Virus record (IMG/VR): IMGVR_UViG_3300036845_000315 | Location: 1 to 26,635 of that record | Strand: one strand, 5' to 3' | DNA length: 26,635 bases | DNA from: a virus | Part shown: piece by piece, positions 9,914 to 23,304 of the stretch | How positions within the stretch are numbered: the first letter of the stretch is position 1 | How the letters are laid out: each line of letters starts with the position of its first letter | Program-made: the position numbers and the translations under genes | The notes under the pieces: generated by a model | Database searches by the model: none | What the model was told of the DNA's origin: nothing | The model's input: only the letters and a program-made list of their open reading frames with translations

Positions 9914-10528
9914 TTATTCCTTGTTGTTAGCTATATAGTTCATGACAGCTTCAAACTTAGACGCTTTAAGATCAGCCAGAGAAGTAGCCTTGTTATAACC
10001 GAGAACATTCTTAAATATTAAAGCACCATTCTTGGCTGACTTTATTTGAGTCTGTATAGCTATGACCTGTTCAGGAGATATGCTCTTTTCATCTATGTAG
10101 GTACGCTCAGCCTCACCATCATCATCTTCAGTGGCAATAGCACATAAAGATAGCAACGCATACTTCTTCATGTAGGTATTAGCACCACCCTTAGCTTGAT
10201 TGCCAGGCTTCTCGCTCTCAAGCATTCTCATATCTTCTATGAACTGGCCCGTAGGTGCGTGAATCAATCGTGTATAGAGATATTCAACGCCTTCTGTAGG
10301 TCTTGCAAAATGCCATATAATAATATTGTTCTTTCCTAAAGCGGTCTCAACAGCACGGTATATATCCTCTATCTTGGCATACTTACCAAACTGCTGATTC
10401 TTACCGCTCTTGCCAGTAAGATCAAACTCCTGCTTAGCCAACAAGAATGCAGCAGCCAGGGCTCTTATATCTTCAGACATTGAGTTAGATAGGGAGGGGG
10501 AATTAATCTTGTTTATTTCTTGTTCCAT
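9914..10528 (-). CDS. erf: ERF-family single-strand annealing protein (leftward operon)
   Basis: 204 residues. ERF proteins bind single-stranded DNA ends and promote annealing in phage recombination and genome circularisation (P22 Erf is the type). Visible family pattern: a helical start (ALAAAFLLAKQEF), then QQFGKYAKIEDIYRAVETAL at 45-64, the strand-rich middle, and the signature GGANTYMKKYALLSLCAIATEDDDGE at about 114-139, corresponding to the family's G-x-x-x-T-Y-x-x-x-Y-A-L-x-x-L-x-x-I-x-x-x-D-D-D. The C-terminal 65 residues are helical. It overlaps the upstream coiled-coil gene by 26 bases. A second, different ERF protein is encoded at 12660-13343. Confidence 0.88.
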   Translation of the reverse strand: MEQEINKINSPSLSNSMSEDIRALAAAFLLAKQEFDLTGKSGKNQQFGKYAKIEDIYRAVETALGKNNIIIWHFARPTEGVEYLYTRLIHAPTGQFIEDMRMLESEKPGNQAKGGANTYMKKYALLSLCAIATEDDDGEAERTYIDEKSISPEQVIAIQTQIKSAKNGALIFKNVLGYNKATSLADLKASKFEAVMNYIANNKE

Positions 10529-12659: not shown

Positions 12660-13343
12660 GTGGAAGCATGCAACCTAAAAACATATAGGTCTGAAGAGAT
12701 AGATAAGATAATGGGTGCGCTCTCAAAATCTCAGGGTACTTACAAACCACTGGTGGCGAACCAAGATGCCCCAGGAGGAAAGTTTGCTAACCTTCAGGCA
12801 ATCCTGCTAGCCGTGAGAGAATCGTTGGCCTCAAATGGAATTGGCTTCTTCCAATTCATAGAACTACAAGATGAAGGGTCAGGAGCTGCCCTATTGAAGA
12901 CAACGCTTGGGCATGAATCAGGACAGTATATAACCTCATGTGCTAGGGTAGTTGCAGGTAAGACCGATAGATCGACTGGCAATATCTATGAGATCCACAA
13001 GCGTCTTCATGCGTTGATGCTTTTGGGTATAGCCCCTTCGGATAATGACCCTATTGCCTTTGATGACAATGGAGACGTGTTGGCGGAACAGTATGTTATA
13101 AGTCAGTTGCGCAAACCCGATTCCCCAGAAAGAGTAGAGATAGATAGATCTGAAGTTATCAATAAGACCCAGTACCAGGAGCTTCTGATAGAGCTTGAGG
13201 GTTACAAAGAGATTGCTAAAGACATTATGGATGCCCATGGTATAACTACGTTGGCCGATCTACCGGCTGATGAGTACCATAGAGCTCAAGCTAGAATACG
13301 CCGCATAAAGAAGAATGACGAAGAATACAGAAAGAACCGATAG
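12660..13343 (+). CDS. erf: ERF-family single-strand annealing protein (rightward operon)
   Basis: 227 residues from GTG at 12660 with AAAGGAG six bases upstream. ERF hallmarks: KIMGALSKSQGTYKPL (16-31), GGKFANLQAILLAVRESLASNGIGF (about 39-63), LGHESGQYITSCARVV (83-98) and the signature region TGNIYEIHKRLHALMLLGIAPSDNDP (about 106-131), which corresponds to the family's G-x-x-x-T-Y-x-x-R-x-A-L-x-x-L-L-G-I with acidic residues after it. The C-terminus is charged and helical. It is clearly different from the 204-residue ERF in the leftward operon, so this phage has two annealing proteins under opposing promoters. Confidence 0.82.
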   Translation: MEACNLKTYRSEEIDKIMGALSKSQGTYKPLVANQDAPGGKFANLQAILLAVRESLASNGIGFFQFIELQDEGSGAALLKTTLGHESGQYITSCARVVAGKTDRSTGNIYEIHKRLHALMLLGIAPSDNDPIAFDDNGDVLAEQYVISQLRKPDSPERVEIDRSEVINKTQYQELLIELEGYKEIAKDIMDAHGITTLADLPADEYHRAQARIRRIKKNDEEYRKNR

Positions 13344-14237: not shown

Positions 14238-16205
14238 TCAAGCTACTCTGTATCCTCCCACAGTTCCAGTATTTATAGATAGATTTTTAGATGTTCCATT
14301 GGACTGGACAGTAAAATTAATCACTGTAGTTGCTACTACTTGAATAACACACGAACCACCAACATTAATATCACCGGAATTATTTGCATAACCAGCGCAA
14401 GAGTTCTTTGTCGGCCCTTTAGAAAAGTTAAACCCTACGCCACCTGCTAGACCTACAGAGAAATCTATACCATCAGTTGCTGAAACACCCACGGTGAAAT
14501 CAGTATACATATAGAAATAATATAGACCGGTAACGGGAACTGTATAAGAAGCTCCGGTACCTAATCCATCTCCAGGAAAGAAGTTGCCACCTACGTTAGT
14601 TATAACGGTAGCAGCAGCCGTTGCACCTAATGAAGCTACGGTGCCATCACCAGTAATATTAGTTTCTGCGTTCCAGGTAGCAGTAAAACTAGAGGTTGGT
14701 GAATAGCTAATGGTAACAGTATTTCCTGAAGCTACTGTAGAAACTGCGCCGATTCCCACGACATTAACAACGCCAGAACCATTAGCCGTAGCCGATCCCG
14801 TATTGCCATCATAGGTAGTAGGGTTAATAACGGTAATATTACCAACATCAATGCGATAACCACCAAAGTAAGTAACTATAGGATTAGCTGGCGCAGCAGC
14901 CCCGGCAACATTAACTGTCTTAGATCCTGAGCCCCCACCAATAGATATCTGCACATAACAAGTATCGCCTGCTGTCATCTCAATCGTTATAGAATTCTGC
15001 AAGTGAAGAATGCTGCTTCCATTCTTATCTCCAGTAGCTGTTTGCAAATCTCCATGATAGAGAAAAGAAGTAGTGACAAAGTTAATAGCGGTAAATACCT
15101 GGTCAGATATGTTGCCTGTCTGAACATAAGATTCAAAATGGTACGTTCCGTCTGAGGGAGCGGTAAACATACCGGTTCCGCTATTATAATTAGTTGATAC
15201 ATCGAATAGTTTCGTATCAAATATGACCGTATAGAAAGTGCCATCACCGGTAACATTAGAGGTAGTTGCCGATTGATAAGCAGCAAATGCTACTTGAGGA
15301 ACTGGTGTTGTGCCACCCGTACCTAACTGACCCGAAGGATTAATCACTACCGGTATTGGGCTGCCCGTAGGAGTTACCCCATAAATACCAGCCATAAAAG
15401 CAGTATTCTGTTGACCCGCACCCGAACCTTGGGTTCCTATACGTATAACATTAGATTCACCAGTCGTTCCGAGGTTAGCAATACATATGTTATTCGATTC
15501 AGAACTGGTGTATTGGGAGCCGGATAGGTATCCTAACGCAAGATTTTCTGAACCGCTCACTAATGAAACTAACGATCCATTGCCTATTCCCACGCACTCC
15601 GAAGAGCTGGTCATAGCGGCACCGCTCGAGGTTCCTGCCAGTACGTTCCTACTACCGGTGGTCATTGCCTGACCGCTAGCATCTGCTAAACATAGATTTT
15701 GAACCCCACTCGTTAATGCCGGAAGAACCCCTATACCTAGACCCACGCTATGGGTGCCGCTTATAGCTAAATTACCTGAAGCTGCACCGATAATAGTGTT
15801 GTTTGAGGTCAGATTTGAAACGTTAAGAAGCACTGTATTGCCTGAACCCGTGAACTCAACAGTAGATCCACAATTCAATGCAGAATTACCTGCAATAATA
15901 TTGAGCACATCAGCTGCCGGAACCGCAACTCCTGAGTCTGTTTGATAGGTATCTGCTACAGTTCCTACTGCGAGCTTCTCCCATTGAGCCAATGCGCCCC
16001 TTGAGGTCATATTGCCTTCAAGGCCAACTAATACCCAGACTCTATCTATACCAGCAGCACTAAAATCTAGCCAGAAATCACCTTCCGATACATTCTGCGT
16101 ATCATACTGCGTTGGTGGCCTATCATTAAAAGTAACATTTGGTGGTTGATTAGCATTAGTACCGGTATATGCGGTTCCCTGCTTACCACCTAATCTATTG
16201 CTCAT
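14238..16205 (-). CDS. Fibre protein with head-type repeats and two C1q-like domains
   Basis: 655 residues. Order: an N-terminal module (RPPTQYDTQNV...DFWLDF, 29-80) also found in the fibre-like protein at 18195; a 'EFTGSGNTVLLNV' segment; then Gly/Ser/Asn-rich repeats (about 135-276) of the YadA/trimeric-autotransporter head type (N-x-x-I-G-x-x-x-G); then C1q-like domain A at about 306-452 (VTGDGTFYTVIFD, FTAPSDGTYHFESY, YFGGYRID) and C1q-like domain B at about 507-655 (ITGDGTV, YTVPVTGLYYFYMY, GGYRV). C1q folds trimerise and bind ligands. This suits a receptor-binding virion fibre. AAAGGAG precedes the ATG. Confidence 0.75.
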   Translation of the reverse strand: MSNRLGGKQGTAYTGTNANQPPNVTFNDRPPTQYDTQNVSEGDFWLDFSAAGIDRVWVLVGLEGNMTSRGALAQWEKLAVGTVADTYQTDSGVAVPAADVLNIIAGNSALNCGSTVEFTGSGNTVLLNVSNLTSNNTIIGAASGNLAISGTHSVGLGIGVLPALTSGVQNLCLADASGQAMTTGSRNVLAGTSSGAAMTSSSECVGIGNGSLVSLVSGSENLALGYLSGSQYTSSESNNICIANLGTTGESNVIRIGTQGSGAGQQNTAFMAGIYGVTPTGSPIPVVINPSGQLGTGGTTPVPQVAFAAYQSATTSNVTGDGTFYTVIFDTKLFDVSTNYNSGTGMFTAPSDGTYHFESYVQTGNISDQVFTAINFVTTSFLYHGDLQTATGDKNGSSILHLQNSITIEMTAGDTCYVQISIGGGSGSKTVNVAGAAAPANPIVTYFGGYRIDVGNITVINPTTYDGNTGSATANGSGVVNVVGIGAVSTVASGNTVTISYSPTSSFTATWNAETNITGDGTVASLGATAAATVITNVGGNFFPGDGLGTGASYTVPVTGLYYFYMYTDFTVGVSATDGIDFSVGLAGGVGFNFSKGPTKNSCAGYANNSGDINVGGSCVIQVVATTVINFTVQSNGTSKNLSINTGTVGGYRVA

Positions 16206-16214
16206 AACTCTCCT

Positions 16215-17405
16215 TTAACAAACGAGATATCCAGAAAATTGACTAAAGTACTGGCCTGCATCTAAGCCAAGAACGCCAACCGTTTTAGTTCCACCAGTAA
16301 CTTGAATGTTCATAAATATGGTCGTTCCGGATGTGAGATGTATAGTTGCACTTCCAGACATGCTCGCTAAACCACTAAAAGCATTGAGAGAAAATGGGTT
16401 GACTATCTCAAAGGTGTAATTACTTGCTAATCCTTGTAAACAAAAATTGGCTGATATATGAGCTGCACCTACACCATTTAAAGTTATGGTACTTTCAAAG
16501 TGGTATACACCAGTCACGGGAGCCGTAAATACGCCGGTTCCGGTGTTATAGCTACTCGACTGATTGAAGAAGGTAGTATCAAATACTATAGGAACATACT
16601 GAGTACCGTCACCGGTAACGTTAGCTACAGAAGTATTAAGATAGGCACCAAATGCAGGCTGTACTGAATTGGTAGTTACTCCTATACTACTTACATTAAA
16701 ACCACCATTAACTTCAAAGCTGCCACTTCCTGAATCAAGCGTAACATTACCACCGCTAATGGTGCCCAGCTCGCTAGAAGAATCGATAATAACTACAGAT
16801 GACGAACCGCCTGTTGTGGATAAATCAATACCCGCTATGAAACATCTGTTTTGTTGTAGATCGCCCGAACCATCTGTACCTATGCGGATAGTGTTTGTTT
16901 CAGAAGCAACTCCCGAACTAGAAATCAGGATATTATTAGCCTCGCCACCGGTCCAATTATTTGCTGCATGTGTACCAATCGCTATATTGTTTTGGGCTGG
17001 AGCTCCTGTAGACATGCATTGATAACCTATAGCGATACACCCTGAGGTATCCTCAAATCCAAATGCGCAAAGAGCTCCTATAGCTACGTTTTCGCTACCA
17101 ATAAACCCTGCGGTATTTCCGCTTGCGGCACCATAACCAAGCGCAACATTGTCATTACCACCGCCTCCTGCAAATTGTCCTGACAGTTTTCCTATAAATG
17201 TATTATTAAGATTATTGGTCACATTAAGTTGTACAGTATCGCCTGAACCGGTAAACTCAACGCTTTCACCACATTGAAAAGCAGCTACATCAGCTATAAT
17301 ATTAATGACACCTGCTACTGGCGTCGCGGTTCCTGCATCGGTCACAAAGGTATTAGCCCCTCCGCCACCACCACCGCCAGTATTTAATGTTCCTGCTTGG
17401 CTCAT
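16215..17405 (-). CDS. Fibre protein with head-type repeats and one C1q-like domain
   Basis: 396 residues. After a poly-Gly stretch (residues 10-16) the sequence is homologous to the neighbour's residues 84-276 (TATPVAGVINIIADV, ESVEFTGSGDTVQLNV, repeats at 69-195), then a C1q-like domain at about 250-395 (VTGDGTQYVPIVFD, FTAPVTGVYHFEST, FSGYL). It lacks the N-terminal anchor module of the 655-residue protein and the second C1q domain. It is likely an accessory or alternative fibre unit assembled with the neighbour. AAGGAGG precedes the ATG. Confidence 0.75.
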   Translation of the reverse strand: MSQAGTLNTGGGGGGGANTFVTDAGTATPVAGVINIIADVAAFQCGESVEFTGSGDTVQLNVTNNLNNTFIGKLSGQFAGGGGNDNVALGYGAASGNTAGFIGSENVAIGALCAFGFEDTSGCIAIGYQCMSTGAPAQNNIAIGTHAANNWTGGEANNILISSSGVASETNTIRIGTDGSGDLQQNRCFIAGIDLSTTGGSSSVVIIDSSSELGTISGGNVTLDSGSGSFEVNGGFNVSSIGVTTNSVQPAFGAYLNTSVANVTGDGTQYVPIVFDTTFFNQSSSYNTGTGVFTAPVTGVYHFESTITLNGVGAAHISANFCLQGLASNYTFEIVNPFSLNAFSGLASMSGSATIHLTSGTTIFMNIQVTGGTKTVGVLGLDAGQYFSQFSGYLVC

Positions 17406-18194: not shown

Positions 18195-19094
18195 TTACGA
18201 TATCAATTGGCCAAGCCATTTAAGACCATCAAACCACAGCGTGATTGATTGATAGTTAGTAGAGAGAACTGCCGTCGCTGCGCTAGCACCACCAGAGGTA
18301 ATGTTGTTACCGTTACCATCAATAGTGATGTTATTAGCTGCTGCATGACCAAAGGCATCAAAAATCACGTAAGTTTTTCCTGTTGAAGGAGCTGCTGGCA
18401 ACGTGACCGTAAATGCTCCAGAGGCAGAGTTAATAGATAATTGATAGTCGCCAGATTGAACCGCATACGGAGTAGTTGCTTGTGTTGAGCTAGGATAGAC
18501 AATATTTCCAGCTAAACGCATAGCAAGACCACCCTGGATTAGGGTCGCAGCTCCGGCGTTTAGGCTTCCTACGTGAACCGTATTGGCAGCATTATCAGTA
18601 CCAATGAATACGGTATTACCATTACCATCAAGCGTGAATCCAGAAGCTCCTGCATCAACATTTATCGCGCCACCTGCGCCATTAATTTCTAGGCTTCCTG
18701 CACCTGGAGCAATAGAAAGTAGACCTGCTGCACCAACCAAGGCAAAGCCACCGGCACCACCATTAATGGTAATTACACCACTATTAGTTGCATTACCGAT
18801 ATTTACGGCACCATTGCCAACAGTAGAAAGATTAGTAGGACCAGGATTAACAGTTAGAGAAGAGAATACTCCGCCCCCACCACCAGATTCAAGCAAGTTC
18901 CATGTATTTACACCACCACTATTATCAACCAAGATATAGGCCGACTGTGCTGGTTTAAAAATCCAAATAACTCCAAGCTCTGCACTGTCAGCGGTAGTAG
19001 GTGCGCGTTGTTGAACGAGGGGCTCTTGCTGTAATCCCGCTTGAGGGTTGGGATAGCCGTACAATGTATTGCGTCTTGAAACTTGTGTAGGCAT
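18195..19094 (-). CDS. Fibre-like structural protein
   Basis: 299 residues from the ATG at 19094 (GGAGATACT upstream); the frame to 19130 is only an extension without a ribosome site. The N-terminus (RAPTTADSAELGVIWIF, VDNSGGVNTWNLLE) matches the attachment module of the 655-residue fibre protein. Then a poly-Gly run and Gly/Asn/Ala-rich beta-repeats (INGGAGGFALVGAAGLL), and a C-terminal domain with YQLSINSASGAFTVTLPAAP and a Trp-containing end (ITLWFDGLKWLGQL), typical of phage fibre tips. It is likely a virion fibre or spike component. Confidence 0.72.
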   Translation of the reverse strand: MPTQVSRRNTLYGYPNPQAGLQQEPLVQQRAPTTADSAELGVIWIFKPAQSAYILVDNSGGVNTWNLLESGGGGGVFSSLTVNPGPTNLSTVGNGAVNIGNATNSGVITINGGAGGFALVGAAGLLSIAPGAGSLEINGAGGAINVDAGASGFTLDGNGNTVFIGTDNAANTVHVGSLNAGAATLIQGGLAMRLAGNIVYPSSTQATTPYAVQSGDYQLSINSASGAFTVTLPAAPSTGKTYVIFDAFGHAAANNITIDGNGNNITSGGASAATAVLSTNYQSITLWFDGLKWLGQLIS

Positions 19095-19133
19095 AGTATC
19101 TCCTAAAATTAGAAAAAGATCTTTGCGCAAACA

Positions 19134-19200
19134 CTAACAACAAGAGTTAGCTGTATGCAATACCCATTGACAAGTGGCGCTACTTTGTTAGCATTAGTTA
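19134..19200. promoter_or_regulatory. Promoter of the antisense cassette and GTTAG repeats
   Basis: On the plus strand TTGACA (19167-19172) is followed after 16 bases by TAGCAT (19189-19194), a weaker -10. GTTAG-type half-sites lie around it: CTAAC at 19134-19138, GTTAG at 19146-19150 and 19187-19191, and AGTTA at 19196-19200. These would suit a ribbon-helix-helix repressor controlling its own gene. Confidence 0.45.
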
Positions 19201-19216
19201 TAGACAAGGAGGAAAT

Positions 19217-19411
19217 ATGGAGAAGAAAAGGCGTAAGCAAATGGCTTTTGATATAAGTCCTGAAGTTCACCAAACGGTAAAGATATTGGCAGCACGCAGG
19301 AATATATCGATAAATTTATGGATGGCGAGAGCTATTCAAGAGAGAATAGATAGAGAGACTAAATATGATAACAACTTCAAGTCTTCCTCCTATGACGTGC
19401 ATAAATTGTAA
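19217..19411 (+). CDS. Ribbon-helix-helix regulator
   Basis: 64 residues. A basic N-terminus is followed by a beta-ribbon (KQMAFDISPEV) and two helices (HQTVKILAARRN, SINLWMARAIQERIDRET), the Arc/MetJ-type fold that binds DNA as a dimer via the ribbon. AAGGAGG precedes the ATG. It opens a plus-strand cassette within the otherwise minus-strand late region, has its own promoter, and probably represses it or neighbouring late genes. Confidence 0.75.
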   Translation: MEKKRRKQMAFDISPEVHQTVKILAARRNISINLWMARAIQERIDRETKYDNNFKSSSYDVHKL

Positions 19412-19544
19412 AAAGGACTTTCATCCTTATGGAAACTTATTTCTTGCACCGAAAAAAGGAGAAGTGGCTCCAGATACATGGTGGTTTTGCCAAAATTGTA
19501 TAGAAACATTAAGCGAAAAGGAAAGAGATGAGTTTTTTCTCTGA
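19365..19544 (+). CDS. Small zinc-ribbon-like protein
   Basis: 59 residues, overlapping the regulator gene by 47 bases in a different frame. Two CxxC pairs (TCINCKKDF at 11-19 and FCQNCIETL at 41-49) separated by 26 residues indicate a zinc ribbon/knuckle. The ATG at 19365 has GAGAG upstream; a later ATG is possible. Function may be regulatory or host-directed; no family is recognised. Confidence 0.6.
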   Translation: MITTSSLPPMTCINCKKDFHPYGNLFLAPKKGEVAPDTWWFCQNCIETLSEKERDEFFL

Positions 19545-19638
19545 CTGGTTAGATTCAATAATAATCTACGATACCTTCTTTGAAGACGAAGAAGAGCAAG
19601 ACGAGACTATTTATCTAGATACGTATAACGACCATTAA
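19528..19638 (+). CDS. Acidic 36-residue protein
   Basis: Starts MSFFSDWLDSIIIYDTFF and continues with DEEEQDE. AAGGAAAG lies six bases upstream of the ATG at 19528, inside the preceding gene. The last 32 bases overlap the 3' end of the antisense ejection gene. Small acidic proteins of phages often mimic DNA or bind host proteins, but nothing here proves that. Confidence 0.5.
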   Translation: MSFFSDWLDSIIIYDTFFEDEEEQDETIYLDTYNDH

Positions 19639-20920
19639 TTTCAGTAGAATGTTTTTGGTATTCTTTTTCTATTTTATCTAAGTCACGACCTAGATTAGAC
19701 ACATTCCCTGCTAATGATTTCTTAACTACATCTTTATAGGCTTTGAATGCTATAGGGCTATTTCTCATAAGTTTTATAGCTCGAGCACCAGATTGGATTC
19801 CTAAAATAGACCCAACACCAGCTGCTACCTGACCTGGATAATTCTGAACAATCTGTCCTGAGTGAAATGCCGATCCTTTAAACAAAGATCCTAGAATAGG
19901 ACTTTCTAACTTTTTCTTTAGATAGGGATATTTACTTAAGAAGCTACTGACCTCATCAATATCTCGAAGGCCGGCAGTAAGCTCTTCTCCAGCACTATAA
20001 GGGTTCCAGAACTTATTATTAGTCTTACCATATCGAGCTATCCCCTCTTTGAGGTGATCTCTGGCAGTTTCTATTACTTTACGTGCGTCTTTTCCTAATT
20101 TTCTACCATTAAGACGAAGAAATTCGTTCCATGAGCGTTTCATATCAACGACTTCTTTAACGTTAGCCAATCCACTTCTACCTGCTATATTCCTAAAAGC
20201 ATTCAATCGATCAAGTGCATCAGCTTTATTTACAATATCACTACGAGAAATAGCTTTAATAGCATAGTCTATTGATTTCTTTTCGGGAGAAAAGTTGAAC
20301 TTTTTACCAAGAGGAATATTAGAGAAGGCATCATTGTATGATTTATTTTGAAGTTTCTCCATAGACCCACGCGTTCCTGCGGTTCCTGCTAATAACATGG
20401 TACCAAGCTTAGCACCTGCACCCACAAGAGGTGACCCTGTAATTAACTCTCCTGCTAGTTTAGCCGTATTTCCAGCTCCAGATATTGCTAAAGATTTAGC
20501 TGCCTGCTTTCCAACTCCCTTAAGCCCTAACGAACCTGAAAGACCTGTTAAGAATAGAGGTGCTGCATCAGAAACTACTTCATCAGCAAAAGACTCTAAG
20601 TCTCCTTGCGGCTCTAAATATTCACCCGTTAATGGCTTCGTTACTGACTCTTTTATCTGTTCAGAAGTAGGTAGAGGGATATTAACTAAAGAAGGTTGAG
20701 CATTCAATTCTTCTACGCTCGGCGTACGACCTCCGGTAGCATAGTTGAGTGCATTAACACCAGCTCCTATAATATTACCAGGAAGCCCAACGATGGACTC
20801 AGCGGCACGAGCTCCAGACCTTGCAAGTCCACGCCCTATCTTTCCAGGCAATGATTCTCCTGATTGATCCTGGTTCGTGTTTTGCTCGTTTTCAGGCATA
20901 TCTAAATACGTATAGCGCAT
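19607..20920 (-). CDS. Candidate ejection (internal virion) protein 3
   Basis: 437 residues. The first half is Gly/Ala/Ser/Leu-rich and hydrophobic in blocks (about 34-60, 115-190), suited to membrane insertion; the second half is charged and helical (VVDMKRSWNEFLRL, KLIKLM). Position after two similar proteins and before fibres matches the P22 ejection protein group (gp7/gp20/gp16), which leave the virion with DNA and form a channel. Both termini carry RYTYLD: residues 2-7 and residues 431-436. AGGA lies six bases upstream of the ATG at 20920. Confidence 0.55.
   Translation of the reverse strand: MRYTYLDMPENEQNTNQDQSGESLPGKIGRGLARSGARAAESIVGLPGNIIGAGVNALNYATGGRTPSVEELNAQPSLVNIPLPTSEQIKESVTKPLTGEYLEPQGDLESFADEVVSDAAPLFLTGLSGSLGLKGVGKQAAKSLAISGAGNTAKLAGELITGSPLVGAGAKLGTMLLAGTAGTRGSMEKLQNKSYNDAFSNIPLGKKFNFSPEKKSIDYAIKAISRSDIVNKADALDRLNAFRNIAGRSGLANVKEVVDMKRSWNEFLRLNGRKLGKDARKVIETARDHLKEGIARYGKTNNKFWNPYSAGEELTAGLRDIDEVSSFLSKYPYLKKKLESPILGSLFKGSAFHSGQIVQNYPGQVAAGVGSILGIQSGARAIKLMRNSPIAFKAYKDVVKKSLAGNVSNLGRDLDKIEKEYQKHSTEINGRYTYLDK
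19646..19668 (+). terminator. Weak possible terminator of the antisense cassette
   Basis: AGAAT (19646-19650) and ATTCT (19660-19664) can form a five-base AT-rich stem followed by TTTTT (19664-19668) and more T. It lies inside the antisense end of the ejection gene. The stem is weak. Confidence 0.25.
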
Positions 20921-20928
20921 AATAGTTC

Positions 20929-22128
20929 CTATACTTCAATTATTTTGCCAGTAACATTATCTAATACACGACCTTTATATCCTTTAGGGCGTAATTCGTT
21001 GCCTCGTTTTGCAGTATCAAGACCAGTAATAATATCCATAGCCTCATTTTCAAGTCGCTCCCTAATTGGCTTCATTCTTTCGCGAGCTTGGCCTTCAATA
21101 TTACCAGGTACTTTACCTTTATTTTCATTTATAATCCTGTCACGGAGTTCGTATTCTTCAATATTAGCTTGGTCGGCTAAGGAATTTAGCTTCGATATGC
21201 CAATGATACCCTCTGGCGTATTCCATAAAGAAGGGAGCGAGCGTTGAAATACTCTTTCTAGATAGTTAGTTACTCGTGTTCCAGGACCGAAAGCTGATTG
21301 AGCATTCTGAGCTAGTCTACCAATCAACTTATTAGCAAGCTGAGAAGAATAATTGAGTCCAAAATCTTCTAAGCCTAATTTAGAGAGAAGTTGATAAGTT
21401 GTTCCACTTCTCAGATTACCTTTTCTAGCTAGATTCTCTAAAAGTTTATAGTCGCGAATGTTATCTTCGGATGCTTGTACTTGCTTATGATAAGGCGCTA
21501 AGTAGTCGCGAACATCCTTATTGCCTTTTAACTCATGCGCTTCTTTTTGAATATTAAGCTTTTCTTGCTCTATACGAGCATGAGGAGACGTAAATGCTTC
21601 TCCAAGTAGTCGAGATTTCTCCGCTTCAAAATTAGAAGGTTGTGCGTTAGATTGCGCTTGGAAATTACCTTGTCCTTGTTGTCCTGGCTGTTCAGCCTGT
21701 TGTTGACCTTGTTGACCTAAAAGACCAATAAGAGCCTCTGGAGAAATCTGAGATTGAGATAGGGCTTGTCTCATTAAGGGATTAACATTCTGATTCGTAA
21801 GAAAATCAGCAGCGTTGAAATTAGGTTGTTGTTGCTGAAGAGCTTGCATTCCTCCTTCAGGTTGCTGTTGAGTAGATTGAGCCTGTTGTTGGTCAATTAA
21901 TTGACCTAGCTCTCTCAACGCTATTGGGTTCTGAAGTAGAACTTTTTGTATTTCTGGTGGCGAATTAGTTATAAGACTGGTAGCTGAAGGTCCAAAGAAT
22001 TTAGAATAACTTTCTCTAGCATGCTGCTGCTTAACATGTTCTAATTTGCTTTGCGCTAATTGCTGAAGCCCAGTACCTAAAGCTGCACCCAGTCTTCCAC
22101 CAGCGCTTGAATCTGCTATTACTTGCAT
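20929..22128 (-). CDS. Candidate ejection (internal virion) protein 2
   Basis: 399 residues. The first 200 are very Gln-rich (blocks of QQQ between 75 and 165), preceded by a Gly/Ala stretch (SSAGGRLGAALGTGLQQL). The rest is charged helical (about 190-399, e.g. YHKQVQASEDNIRDYKLLEN). Such low-complexity, Gln-rich, helical proteins in this gene position are typical of P22-like DNA-ejection proteins, though no family domain is recognised directly. TAAGGAGATACT precedes the ATG at 22128. Confidence 0.6.
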   Translation of the reverse strand: MQVIADSSAGGRLGAALGTGLQQLAQSKLEHVKQQHARESYSKFFGPSATSLITNSPPEIQKVLLQNPIALRELGQLIDQQQAQSTQQQPEGGMQALQQQQPNFNAADFLTNQNVNPLMRQALSQSQISPEALIGLLGQQGQQQAEQPGQQGQGNFQAQSNAQPSNFEAEKSRLLGEAFTSPHARIEQEKLNIQKEAHELKGNKDVRDYLAPYHKQVQASEDNIRDYKLLENLARKGNLRSGTTYQLLSKLGLEDFGLNYSSQLANKLIGRLAQNAQSAFGPGTRVTNYLERVFQRSLPSLWNTPEGIIGISKLNSLADQANIEEYELRDRIINENKGKVPGNIEGQARERMKPIRERLENEAMDIITGLDTAKRGNELRPKGYKGRVLDNVTGKIIEV

Positions 22129-22137
22129 AGTATCTCC

Positions 22138-22764
22138 TTAGCGAGGTTGTATGTTTCTTAAGGCATTATTAAGCATATAGGACTGATAAAGTGATGGAGC
22201 CGCCTGAATAGCACCATTGAATAAATTCTCTCCAAAACCAGGCTGACTTTGCTGATAGAAGTTCTGGAAAGATGGACTCAATCCTAAAGAAAGTTGCTGT
22301 AATGCATTCTGCTGATTTTGTTGGCCATATTGATTTCTAAGTAGAGCCAACGTATCACCTAGTCCTCTGCCTGCTTGCCCTAATTGCGTAGCAAAAGCTC
22401 CAGAAGATAGTGCGTTATTACCTAACGATGCAAAGCGCTCTGCTATGGATGGTACTATATTTTGGTTGAATTGGTTTTGAGCATAGTTAGAGATATCTTC
22501 GAATCCAGCATATGGGTTCTGTAGATTTTGCTGTCCTTGTCCTAGAAGCATAGATAGAATTTGTTGTTGTTGAGGATTTAACGTTTGTGCTTGTTTTACG
22601 CCACCCTTTTCACCACCACTAAATAGGCCGCCTATACCACCTGCTACACCACCAAGAGCGCCACCGATAGCGGTACCTATACCGGGAGCAATCATACTAC
22701 CAATTGCCGCTCCGGTTCCTGCTCCGCCAAGGGTTCCTTGCAATCCTGATAACCAATTTGCCAT
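22138..22764 (-). CDS. Candidate ejection protein 1, glycine-zipper type
   Basis: 208 residues from the ATG at 22764 (GGGAG site upstream; the ATG at 22776 has none). Residues about 10-45 hold a glycine-zipper: repeated G-x-x-x-G and GG pairs (GAGTGAAIGSMIAPGIGTAI). This motif packs helices in membranes. The remainder is Gln/Asn/Ser-rich. It precedes the other two candidate ejection proteins, so the three probably form the ejection channel. Confidence 0.65.
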   Translation of the reverse strand: MANWLSGLQGTLGGAGTGAAIGSMIAPGIGTAIGGALGGVAGGIGGLFSGGEKGGVKQAQTLNPQQQQILSMLLGQGQQNLQNPYAGFEDISNYAQNQFNQNIVPSIAERFASLGNNALSSGAFATQLGQAGRGLGDTLALLRNQYGQQNQQNALQQLSLGLSPSFQNFYQQSQPGFGENLFNGAIQAAPSLYQSYMLNNALRNIQPR

Positions 22765-22776
22765 CGCCTCTCCCAT

Positions 22777-23304
22777 TTAAAATTTTACATACTCTAAGGT
22801 AACTTGAGAGTCGGTAAATGTTACTCCCGAGTTATTATTTATTAATACCTGCGTAGCGCTTGTTGTAACCTCTATATTATTACCCGAAGCTCCAGCAAAA
22901 GTTATAGGATACCCTACTAGCGTGCTCGTATTGGTTGCTGCTCCTGAGATAAACATCCACTTAAAGGTATTGGTCACCGTTATACCATGGTTTATAGCTG
23001 TTACGCCAGCACCTAATGCGCCGGTATTTATAGTCTTCTGGAATCCGGGGCGTAGCTGTAGAGGATCTGTAGAGTTAGGATTGAAATAAAGTTTACCATT
23101 AACGAATTCTTCATTGATATAGTAACCGGTAGCCTTGGTATTTAATGCCAGAACAATACTATTAATTGTCTGATAGAGACGCACCAGTAATTCTTTAAAC
23201 TCAGCGCTATTTACATTTACCTCATGTAGGCGAGCAACATCTAAAATAAACGTAGTGGGAATAAACGATCCCGTATTGATCTGTTGCTCAAGATTGTATG
23301 CCAT
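22777..23304 (-). CDS. Virion structural protein, short
   Basis: 175 residues. An N-terminal helical part (LDVARLHEVNVNSAEFKELL) is followed by a beta-rich C-terminal domain (INTGALGAGVTAINHGITV...FTDSQVTLEYV), a pattern seen in small adaptor or fibre-tip proteins of short-tailed phages. AAGGAG lies upstream of the ATG. It sits between tail-hub-like and ejection genes. No function is assigned firmly. Confidence 0.7.
   Translation of the reverse strand: MAYNLEQQINTGSFIPTTFILDVARLHEVNVNSAEFKELLVRLYQTINSIVLALNTKATGYYINEEFVNGKLYFNPNSTDPLQLRPGFQKTINTGALGAGVTAINHGITVTNTFKWMFISGAATNTSTLVGYPITFAGASGNNIEVTTSATQVLINNNSGVTFTDSQVTLEYVKF

Follow-up and report, generated by a model that had tools for sequence, protein, structure and literature searches.

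An antisense ribbon-helix-helix cassette with exchangeable cargo at a fixed site in the late operon of an uncultivated short-tailed phage family

Anatomy of the antisense cassette

The DNA analysed here, hereafter the window, is a viral stretch of 26,635 nucleotides (IMG/VR record IMGVR_UViG_3300036845_000315, positions 1 to 26,635). Between two leftward late genes, the ORF list and the sequence contain three ORFs on the plus strand, lying antisense inside the late operon (Table 1). An earlier note, made from the sequence alone, had described this unit as a ribbon-helix-helix (RHH) regulator, a zinc-ribbon-like protein with two CxxC motifs, and an acidic protein of 36 residues in overlapping reading frames, and all three ORFs were found as described. 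The CxxC ORF shares 47 nt with the RHH gene, and the acidic ORF shares 17 nt with the CxxC ORF and overlaps the 3′ end of the convergent late gene by 32 nt. The Shine-Dalgarno (SD) pattern of the acidic ORF recurs in many of the genes that follow the regulator in relatives, here termed cargo. In the late genes further to the right, the 212-aa product gave a weak tape-measure-like match.

Table 1. Positions of the cassette features and flanking genes in the window
Feature	Position	Strand	Basis
Tail-fibre-like gene (MPTQVSRRNTLYGYPNPQAGLQQEP...), left flank, with SD AGGAG	18195-19094	-	
Conserved promoter block: CAAT (19158-19161), -35 TTGACA (19167-19172), -10 TAGCAT (19189-19194), extended TG	19158-19194	+	de novo motif, PSSM, simple scan
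Putative RHH operator CTACTTTGTTAG, imperfect CTA-N6-TAG palindrome	19180-19191	.	symmetry at this offset
SD AAGGAGG (perfect) of the RHH gene	19206-19212	+	sequence
RHH regulator, 64 aa, Arc/CopG/HicB-type	19217-19411	+	Pfam, PHROGs, AF2 model, pS/pN
Cargo 1, 59-aa CxxC...CxxC (zinc-ribbon-like) protein, start codon uncertain	19365-19544	+	
SD AAGGA of the acidic ORF, 5-nt spacer to ATG	19518-19522	+	sequence
Cargo 2, 36-aa acidic protein, net charge -12, without membrane segment	19528-19638	+	
Late gene, 437 aa, right flank, convergent with the cassette; putatively ejection-protein-like	19607-20920	-	position
Next late genes, 399 aa and 212 aa, presumed ejection proteins	20929-22776	-	

The identity of the first product as an RHH protein is solid. 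Its core was recognized by Pfam HicB (PF05534) at 22.1 bits against a curated cut-off of 21, by the Arc-like PHROGs phrog_3180 and phrog_582, and likewise by Pfam PSK/ParD-type RHH profiles. A structure modelled with AF2 from 25 relatives reached a pLDDT of 92-98 over the core, and its top PDB fold matches were RHH proteins (the CopASO antitoxin, which ranked first, the Arc-operator complex, CopG, and MatP). No Foldseek E-value fell below 0.06, which is weak but expected given how short the protein is. HicB and the Arc-like regulators share the RHH fold and the length of the window protein; however, the match to HicB is limited to the RHH part, and no HicA toxin is present here. Compared with the gene of the relative L009, pS was 0.84 and pN was 0.07, and the differences within the core fell at 20 third, 6 first, and 3 second codon positions. 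By these sequence comparisons, the RHH gene is real, constrained, and under strong purifying selection. RHH queries retrieved 27 loci from IMG/VR and, among 84,980 species genomes, a single match on a 3.5-kb contig in a Methylococcaceae MAG, and no close relative was detected in the named phages and plasmids searched. In the collections searched, close RHH relatives are confined to this phage family and the one MAG contig.

The CxxC and acidic ORFs are both likely genuine genes, judged from their sequence features. In shuffled sequence, an ORF as long as that of the acidic protein (36 aa or more) and likewise preceded by an SD arose in 8 of 3,000 trials (~0.003), and two CxxC motifs occurred in 3 of 357 control ORFs (<1%). 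The CxxC ORF lacks a good SD, and its start codon is uncertain. The reading frame of the RHH gene is conserved among relatives; for the CxxC product, no relatives were found in IMG/VR and the other family records. When the CxxC protein was modelled with AF2 from its sequence alone, confidence was low (pLDDT 64). Neither cargo protein of the window has a known relative or a membrane segment.

Promoter and putative operator

The unit has a promoter of its own, as the earlier note had proposed. A sigma70-like sequence with an extended -10 (TTGACA-16-TAGCAT, 19167-19194) matched the consensus at 10 of 12 positions in a simple scan, and the corresponding motif was found de novo, without supervision, in 27 upstream regions. 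It takes the form CAAT-spacer-TTGAC-spacer-CTA-N3-TGTTA(G/A), with a CTA-N6-TAG palindrome across the spacer and the -10. When the window was scanned with the PSSM, the cassette promoter was the best site (21.5 bits; runner-up, 10.3). The cassette site was also clearly the top of each type A genome scanned (G001, G002, G003, G005, G008, G009, and the window), and it ranked first as well in the genome G007, in which the RHH gene is HNH-fused. No clear motif site was seen in G004 and G006, and the motif scored poorly with RHH genes of greater divergence (L028 and L033) and with type B. With one strong site per type A genome, the regulator looks local, and the same observation contradicts a global role for the RHH protein. 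The promoter points rightward, antisense to the late genes, so transcription from it would oppose that of the late operon, in line with the original description.

The palindrome was perfect (CTAACATGTTAG or CTATCATGATAG) in L013, L017, L023, and L025. Symmetry at the operator offset averaged 3.84 of 6 pairs versus ~1.6 elsewhere, and the copy in the window is weakly symmetric (3 of 6 pairs). Covariation between the palindrome halves was not significant in a shuffle test (p ~0.1), and the TGTTA of the motif is also expected from an extended -10 alone. A conserved motif with a palindrome over the -10, best in each type A genome, suggests autorepression of the RHH promoter. In the divergent RHH type (type B: L037, L039, and G012), RKRLAID replaces RxQMAFD in the DNA-contacting strand, and the promoters carry a different palindrome, TGTGTACACA. 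This correlated change of strand and palindrome, seen in only three related cases, supports direct binding.

Two further elements were noted upstream. An additional inverted repeat, CTAAC-N7-GTTAG, precedes the -35 at 19133-19152 of the window and is possibly a second operator. A second conserved block (~AATTACATTTC-N5-AAGAAACAA) separates the fibre start from the RHH promoter in L015, L021, L024, L026, and L036; it could be a leftward promoter of the fibre operon that shares the operator.

The site and its cargo in related phages

To avoid bias from RHH queries, a separate structural gene (22780-23304) was taken as bait. It retrieved 28 contigs, and an antisense RHH gene was present at the site in all 22 that reach it (~17 distinct phages). 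A recognizable fibre start was also seen in 20 of these 22; it was not visible by motif in L059, and in L048/G012 the site was read from the opposite end of a circular record. No empty site lacking the RHH gene was seen among the 22 spanning contigs. Therefore, the RHH gene is a core gene of the family and not an occasional insertion. The earlier interpretation of the unit as an inserted moron is not supported by this comparison, in which the cargo alone varied. With respect to the promoter and terminator of its own that define a moron, the promoter is present; a search for a terminator in the window cassette found none, and the folding of the cassette 3′ end showed nothing unusual. By sequence comparison, the slot is fixed in an uncultivated short-tailed phage family, and the cargo alone is exchangeable. 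The cultured phages ZP6 and KLEP18-1, which are kin by terminase or portal, have no annotated antisense gene before their fibre or spike genes.

The portal and terminase are podovirus-like, and further genes encode an Erf-like annealing protein and a RusA-like resolvase. The 38-kb record of the relative G012 carries a terminal repeat and was read as circular. Lysogeny control, which had been offered as one possible function, is unlikely: no tyrosine integrase was found in 13 records, and no prophage was found in the 84,980 species genomes, where the short MAG contig was the only match. Several other genes of these phages were recorded in passing. In the window, two fibre-like proteins (16215-17405 and 14238-16205, both on the minus strand) carry C1q-like domains (PF00386; E 5e-13 and 2e-9), and the annealing-protein-like gene at 9914-10528 (-) matches Erf-like PHROGs and resembles, by eye only, 12660-13343 (+) on the opposite strand. 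A secreted Peptidase_A4 (G1 glutamic acid protease), an unusual phage gene, occurs in L066:15347-16186 (-) and L083:12102-12980 (-), with E-values of 2e-25 and 9e-28, and G012 encodes a TauD-like dioxygenase and a PhzF-like protein (L083:10174-11229 (-) and L083:9168-10118 (+)).

Exchange of cargo behind a constant regulator was seen directly. Homology between the window and L009 spans 18840-19371, covering the fibre start, the promoter, and the RHH gene, and ends inside the end of the RHH gene. L009 and L011 are 83% identical in nucleotide sequence as far as the RHH gene extends, and beyond it nothing is shared until inside the next gene; their RHH cores are identical in protein, and their cargo is unrelated. 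The typical cargo consists of one or two small membrane proteins, mostly of 40-80 aa with one or two membrane segments, encoded last in the operon. A membrane segment was predicted in at least one ORF of 24 of the 26 other distinct cassettes, with 2 borderline, and in none of the window ORFs; the hydropathy test used for this was also passed by 26% of antisense control ORFs. Because hydrophobic control ORFs are this common, the SD-led cargo and the conserved families are the stronger evidence of coding. SD-led ORFs made up 2 of 256 antisense controls (0.8%), and pN was below pS in all 14 pairs of cargo genes tested. The cargo evolves faster than the regulator, with pN/pS of ~0.25-0.8 versus 0-0.4 for RHH.

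The conserved cargo families include a nine-member two-helix family and three smaller ones. A one-helix family with the pattern CxxxCxxWxC is common to phages with either RHH type, and a CxxC family occurs in L023, L032, and L035, of which the L023 protein is acidic (net charge -13). These three CxxC proteins resemble the ClpX zinc-binding domain by eye; a Pfam search of them for this domain gave no match. No match to SieA or another functional family was obtained for the membrane cargo proteins of relatives that were tested. HNH genes are also associated with the slot. One lies downstream of the RHH gene in L015, and an HNH_3 endonuclease domain is fused in frame to the RHH N-terminus in two lineages, L022 (3764-4291) and L055 (reverse strand)/L056, with the fusions standing behind the same RHH promoter block. 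In L009 and L020, HNH genes adjoin the fibre gene.

Comparison with known systems and proposed role

The arrangement was compared with the immI/sieA region of phage P22 (mnt, orf59a, sieA; arc, ant; NC_002371), which lies inside the late operon between the DNA-ejection genes 7, 20, and 16 and the tailspike gene 9. There, a leftward unit antisense to the late genes begins with the RHH protein Mnt, continues with a 59-aa ORF, and ends with the inner-membrane protein SieA, converging on gene 16. The window cassette likewise lies antisense between ejection-like and fibre genes, the ejection identity resting on position and the weak tape-measure match, and the order of RHH, small ORF, and membrane protein, as well as the site, is alike in P22 and in the cassettes of relatives. 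The immI/sieA region is variable among P22-like phages (PMC8022706), and SieA blocks DNA injection (PMC10883804). The two systems also differ. P22 is temperate and has an integrase; its sieA has its own promoter, arc-ant is oriented the other way, and Mnt is larger than the window RHH protein. Membrane cargo here is mostly 40-80 aa versus ~162 aa for SieA, and the window cassette contains no SieA-type membrane protein. A search of the window gap for an antirepressor (ant-like) ORF found none. Alignment of the RHH profile with Mnt and Arc by hhalign was not significant (probability ~6%), with Arc nevertheless among the top PDB fold matches. The cassette resembles P22 immI, and the acr-aca operons discussed below, in logic and not by demonstrated membership in either family.

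With moderate confidence, we interpret the unit as a cassette for superinfection exclusion or counter-defence that represses itself, is probably expressed early, occupies a fixed slot, and carries exchangeable cargo. Such a role would fit the anatomy, as judged from position and analogy. In this scheme, the host polymerase would read the cassette rightward, against the late operon, from the conserved sigma70-like promoter. An RHH dimer would most likely bind the palindrome that spans the spacer and -10 and thereby repress its own promoter, restricting expression to a limited pulse early in infection. The cargo would most likely act on the newly infected cell. It typically comprises one or two small inner-membrane proteins, in some phages accompanied by a small CxxC or HNH protein; the window cargo pairs a zinc-ribbon-like protein with an acidic one. 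Membrane versions would most likely serve superinfection exclusion, and soluble versions would most likely inhibit the host or its defences.

Other explanations account for parts of the data. The cassette could be a counter-defence operon of the acr-aca type, with the RHH protein as a functional Aca equivalent and cargo that directly inhibits CRISPR, restriction, or another host defence; the acidic protein could then be a nucleic-acid mimic, for which its strong negative charge and that of the L023 protein speak. In the acr-aca operons described (PMC9410906), a small autoregulator is combined with small cargo that varies, and the strong promoter contains an inverted repeat. A constant small DNA-binding regulator with variable small cargo recurs here, together with a palindrome across spacer and -10 to which the regulator is predicted to bind. 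By contrast, the Aca families described there are HTH proteins (PMC9410906), whereas the regulator here is an RHH protein and the first gene, the cargo is mostly membrane protein, no known Acr is present, and PADLOC gave no match to a defence-related protein. Membrane proteins are, to our knowledge, unusual among known Acrs. We consider this explanation rather unlikely. It is also unlikely, somewhat more so, that the RHH gene alone matters, perhaps as a regulator of the divergent tail-fibre operon, and that most of the ORFs behind it in the window are spurious. The RHH gene and the fibre 5′ region do form one conserved block, and the window CxxC ORF lacks both relatives and a good SD; however, the cargo genes of relatives are coding by pN/pS and SD, and the acidic ORF and the paired CxxC motifs of the window are both rare by chance.

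The order of an RHH gene followed by an overlapping second gene is also usual for toxin-antitoxin modules, in which the small membrane or zinc protein would be a toxin serving addiction or abortive infection, and the HicB and PSK/ParD-type matches and the CopASO antitoxin as the top fold point the same way. HicAB itself is ruled out, since neither neighbour matched HicA, and no other known toxin was matched, neighbours included. Moreover, a toxin family would be expected to accompany its antitoxin, whereas the identical RHH cores of L009 and L011 carry unrelated cargo, and there is no sign of a lysogen needing maintenance; we regard this explanation as very unlikely. Control of lysis, with the small membrane proteins as holins or antiholins under the RHH-controlled promoter, would suit their size, their one or two membrane segments, and their last position in the operon, and no recognizable holin or endolysin was found among ten accessory proteins scanned from two relatives. 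Against it stand transcription opposing the late operon, the rapid turnover of cargo families, and the window cargo without membrane segments, and we give it hardly any weight.

The interpretation as an exclusion or counter-defence cassette can be extended, tentatively. The RHH protein might represent a class of autoregulator that is new and not of the HTH type, and it would mark a fixed cargo slot throughout an uncultivated, probably lytic family. The several unrelated families of small membrane proteins, together with the CxxC and the acidic proteins, would then form an unknown exclusion or counter-defence set for which RHH could be used as bait. If the proposed role is correct, the immI/sieA arrangement of P22 recurs, without detectable homology at the locus, in a phage family that combines a constant RHH switch with rapidly exchanged cargo. 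An antisense RHH gene with the promoter motif would then provide a simple genomic rule for locating short exclusion or counter-defence genes missed by annotation pipelines. The site is promising for finding new phage exclusion or counter-defence proteins and offers testable candidates.
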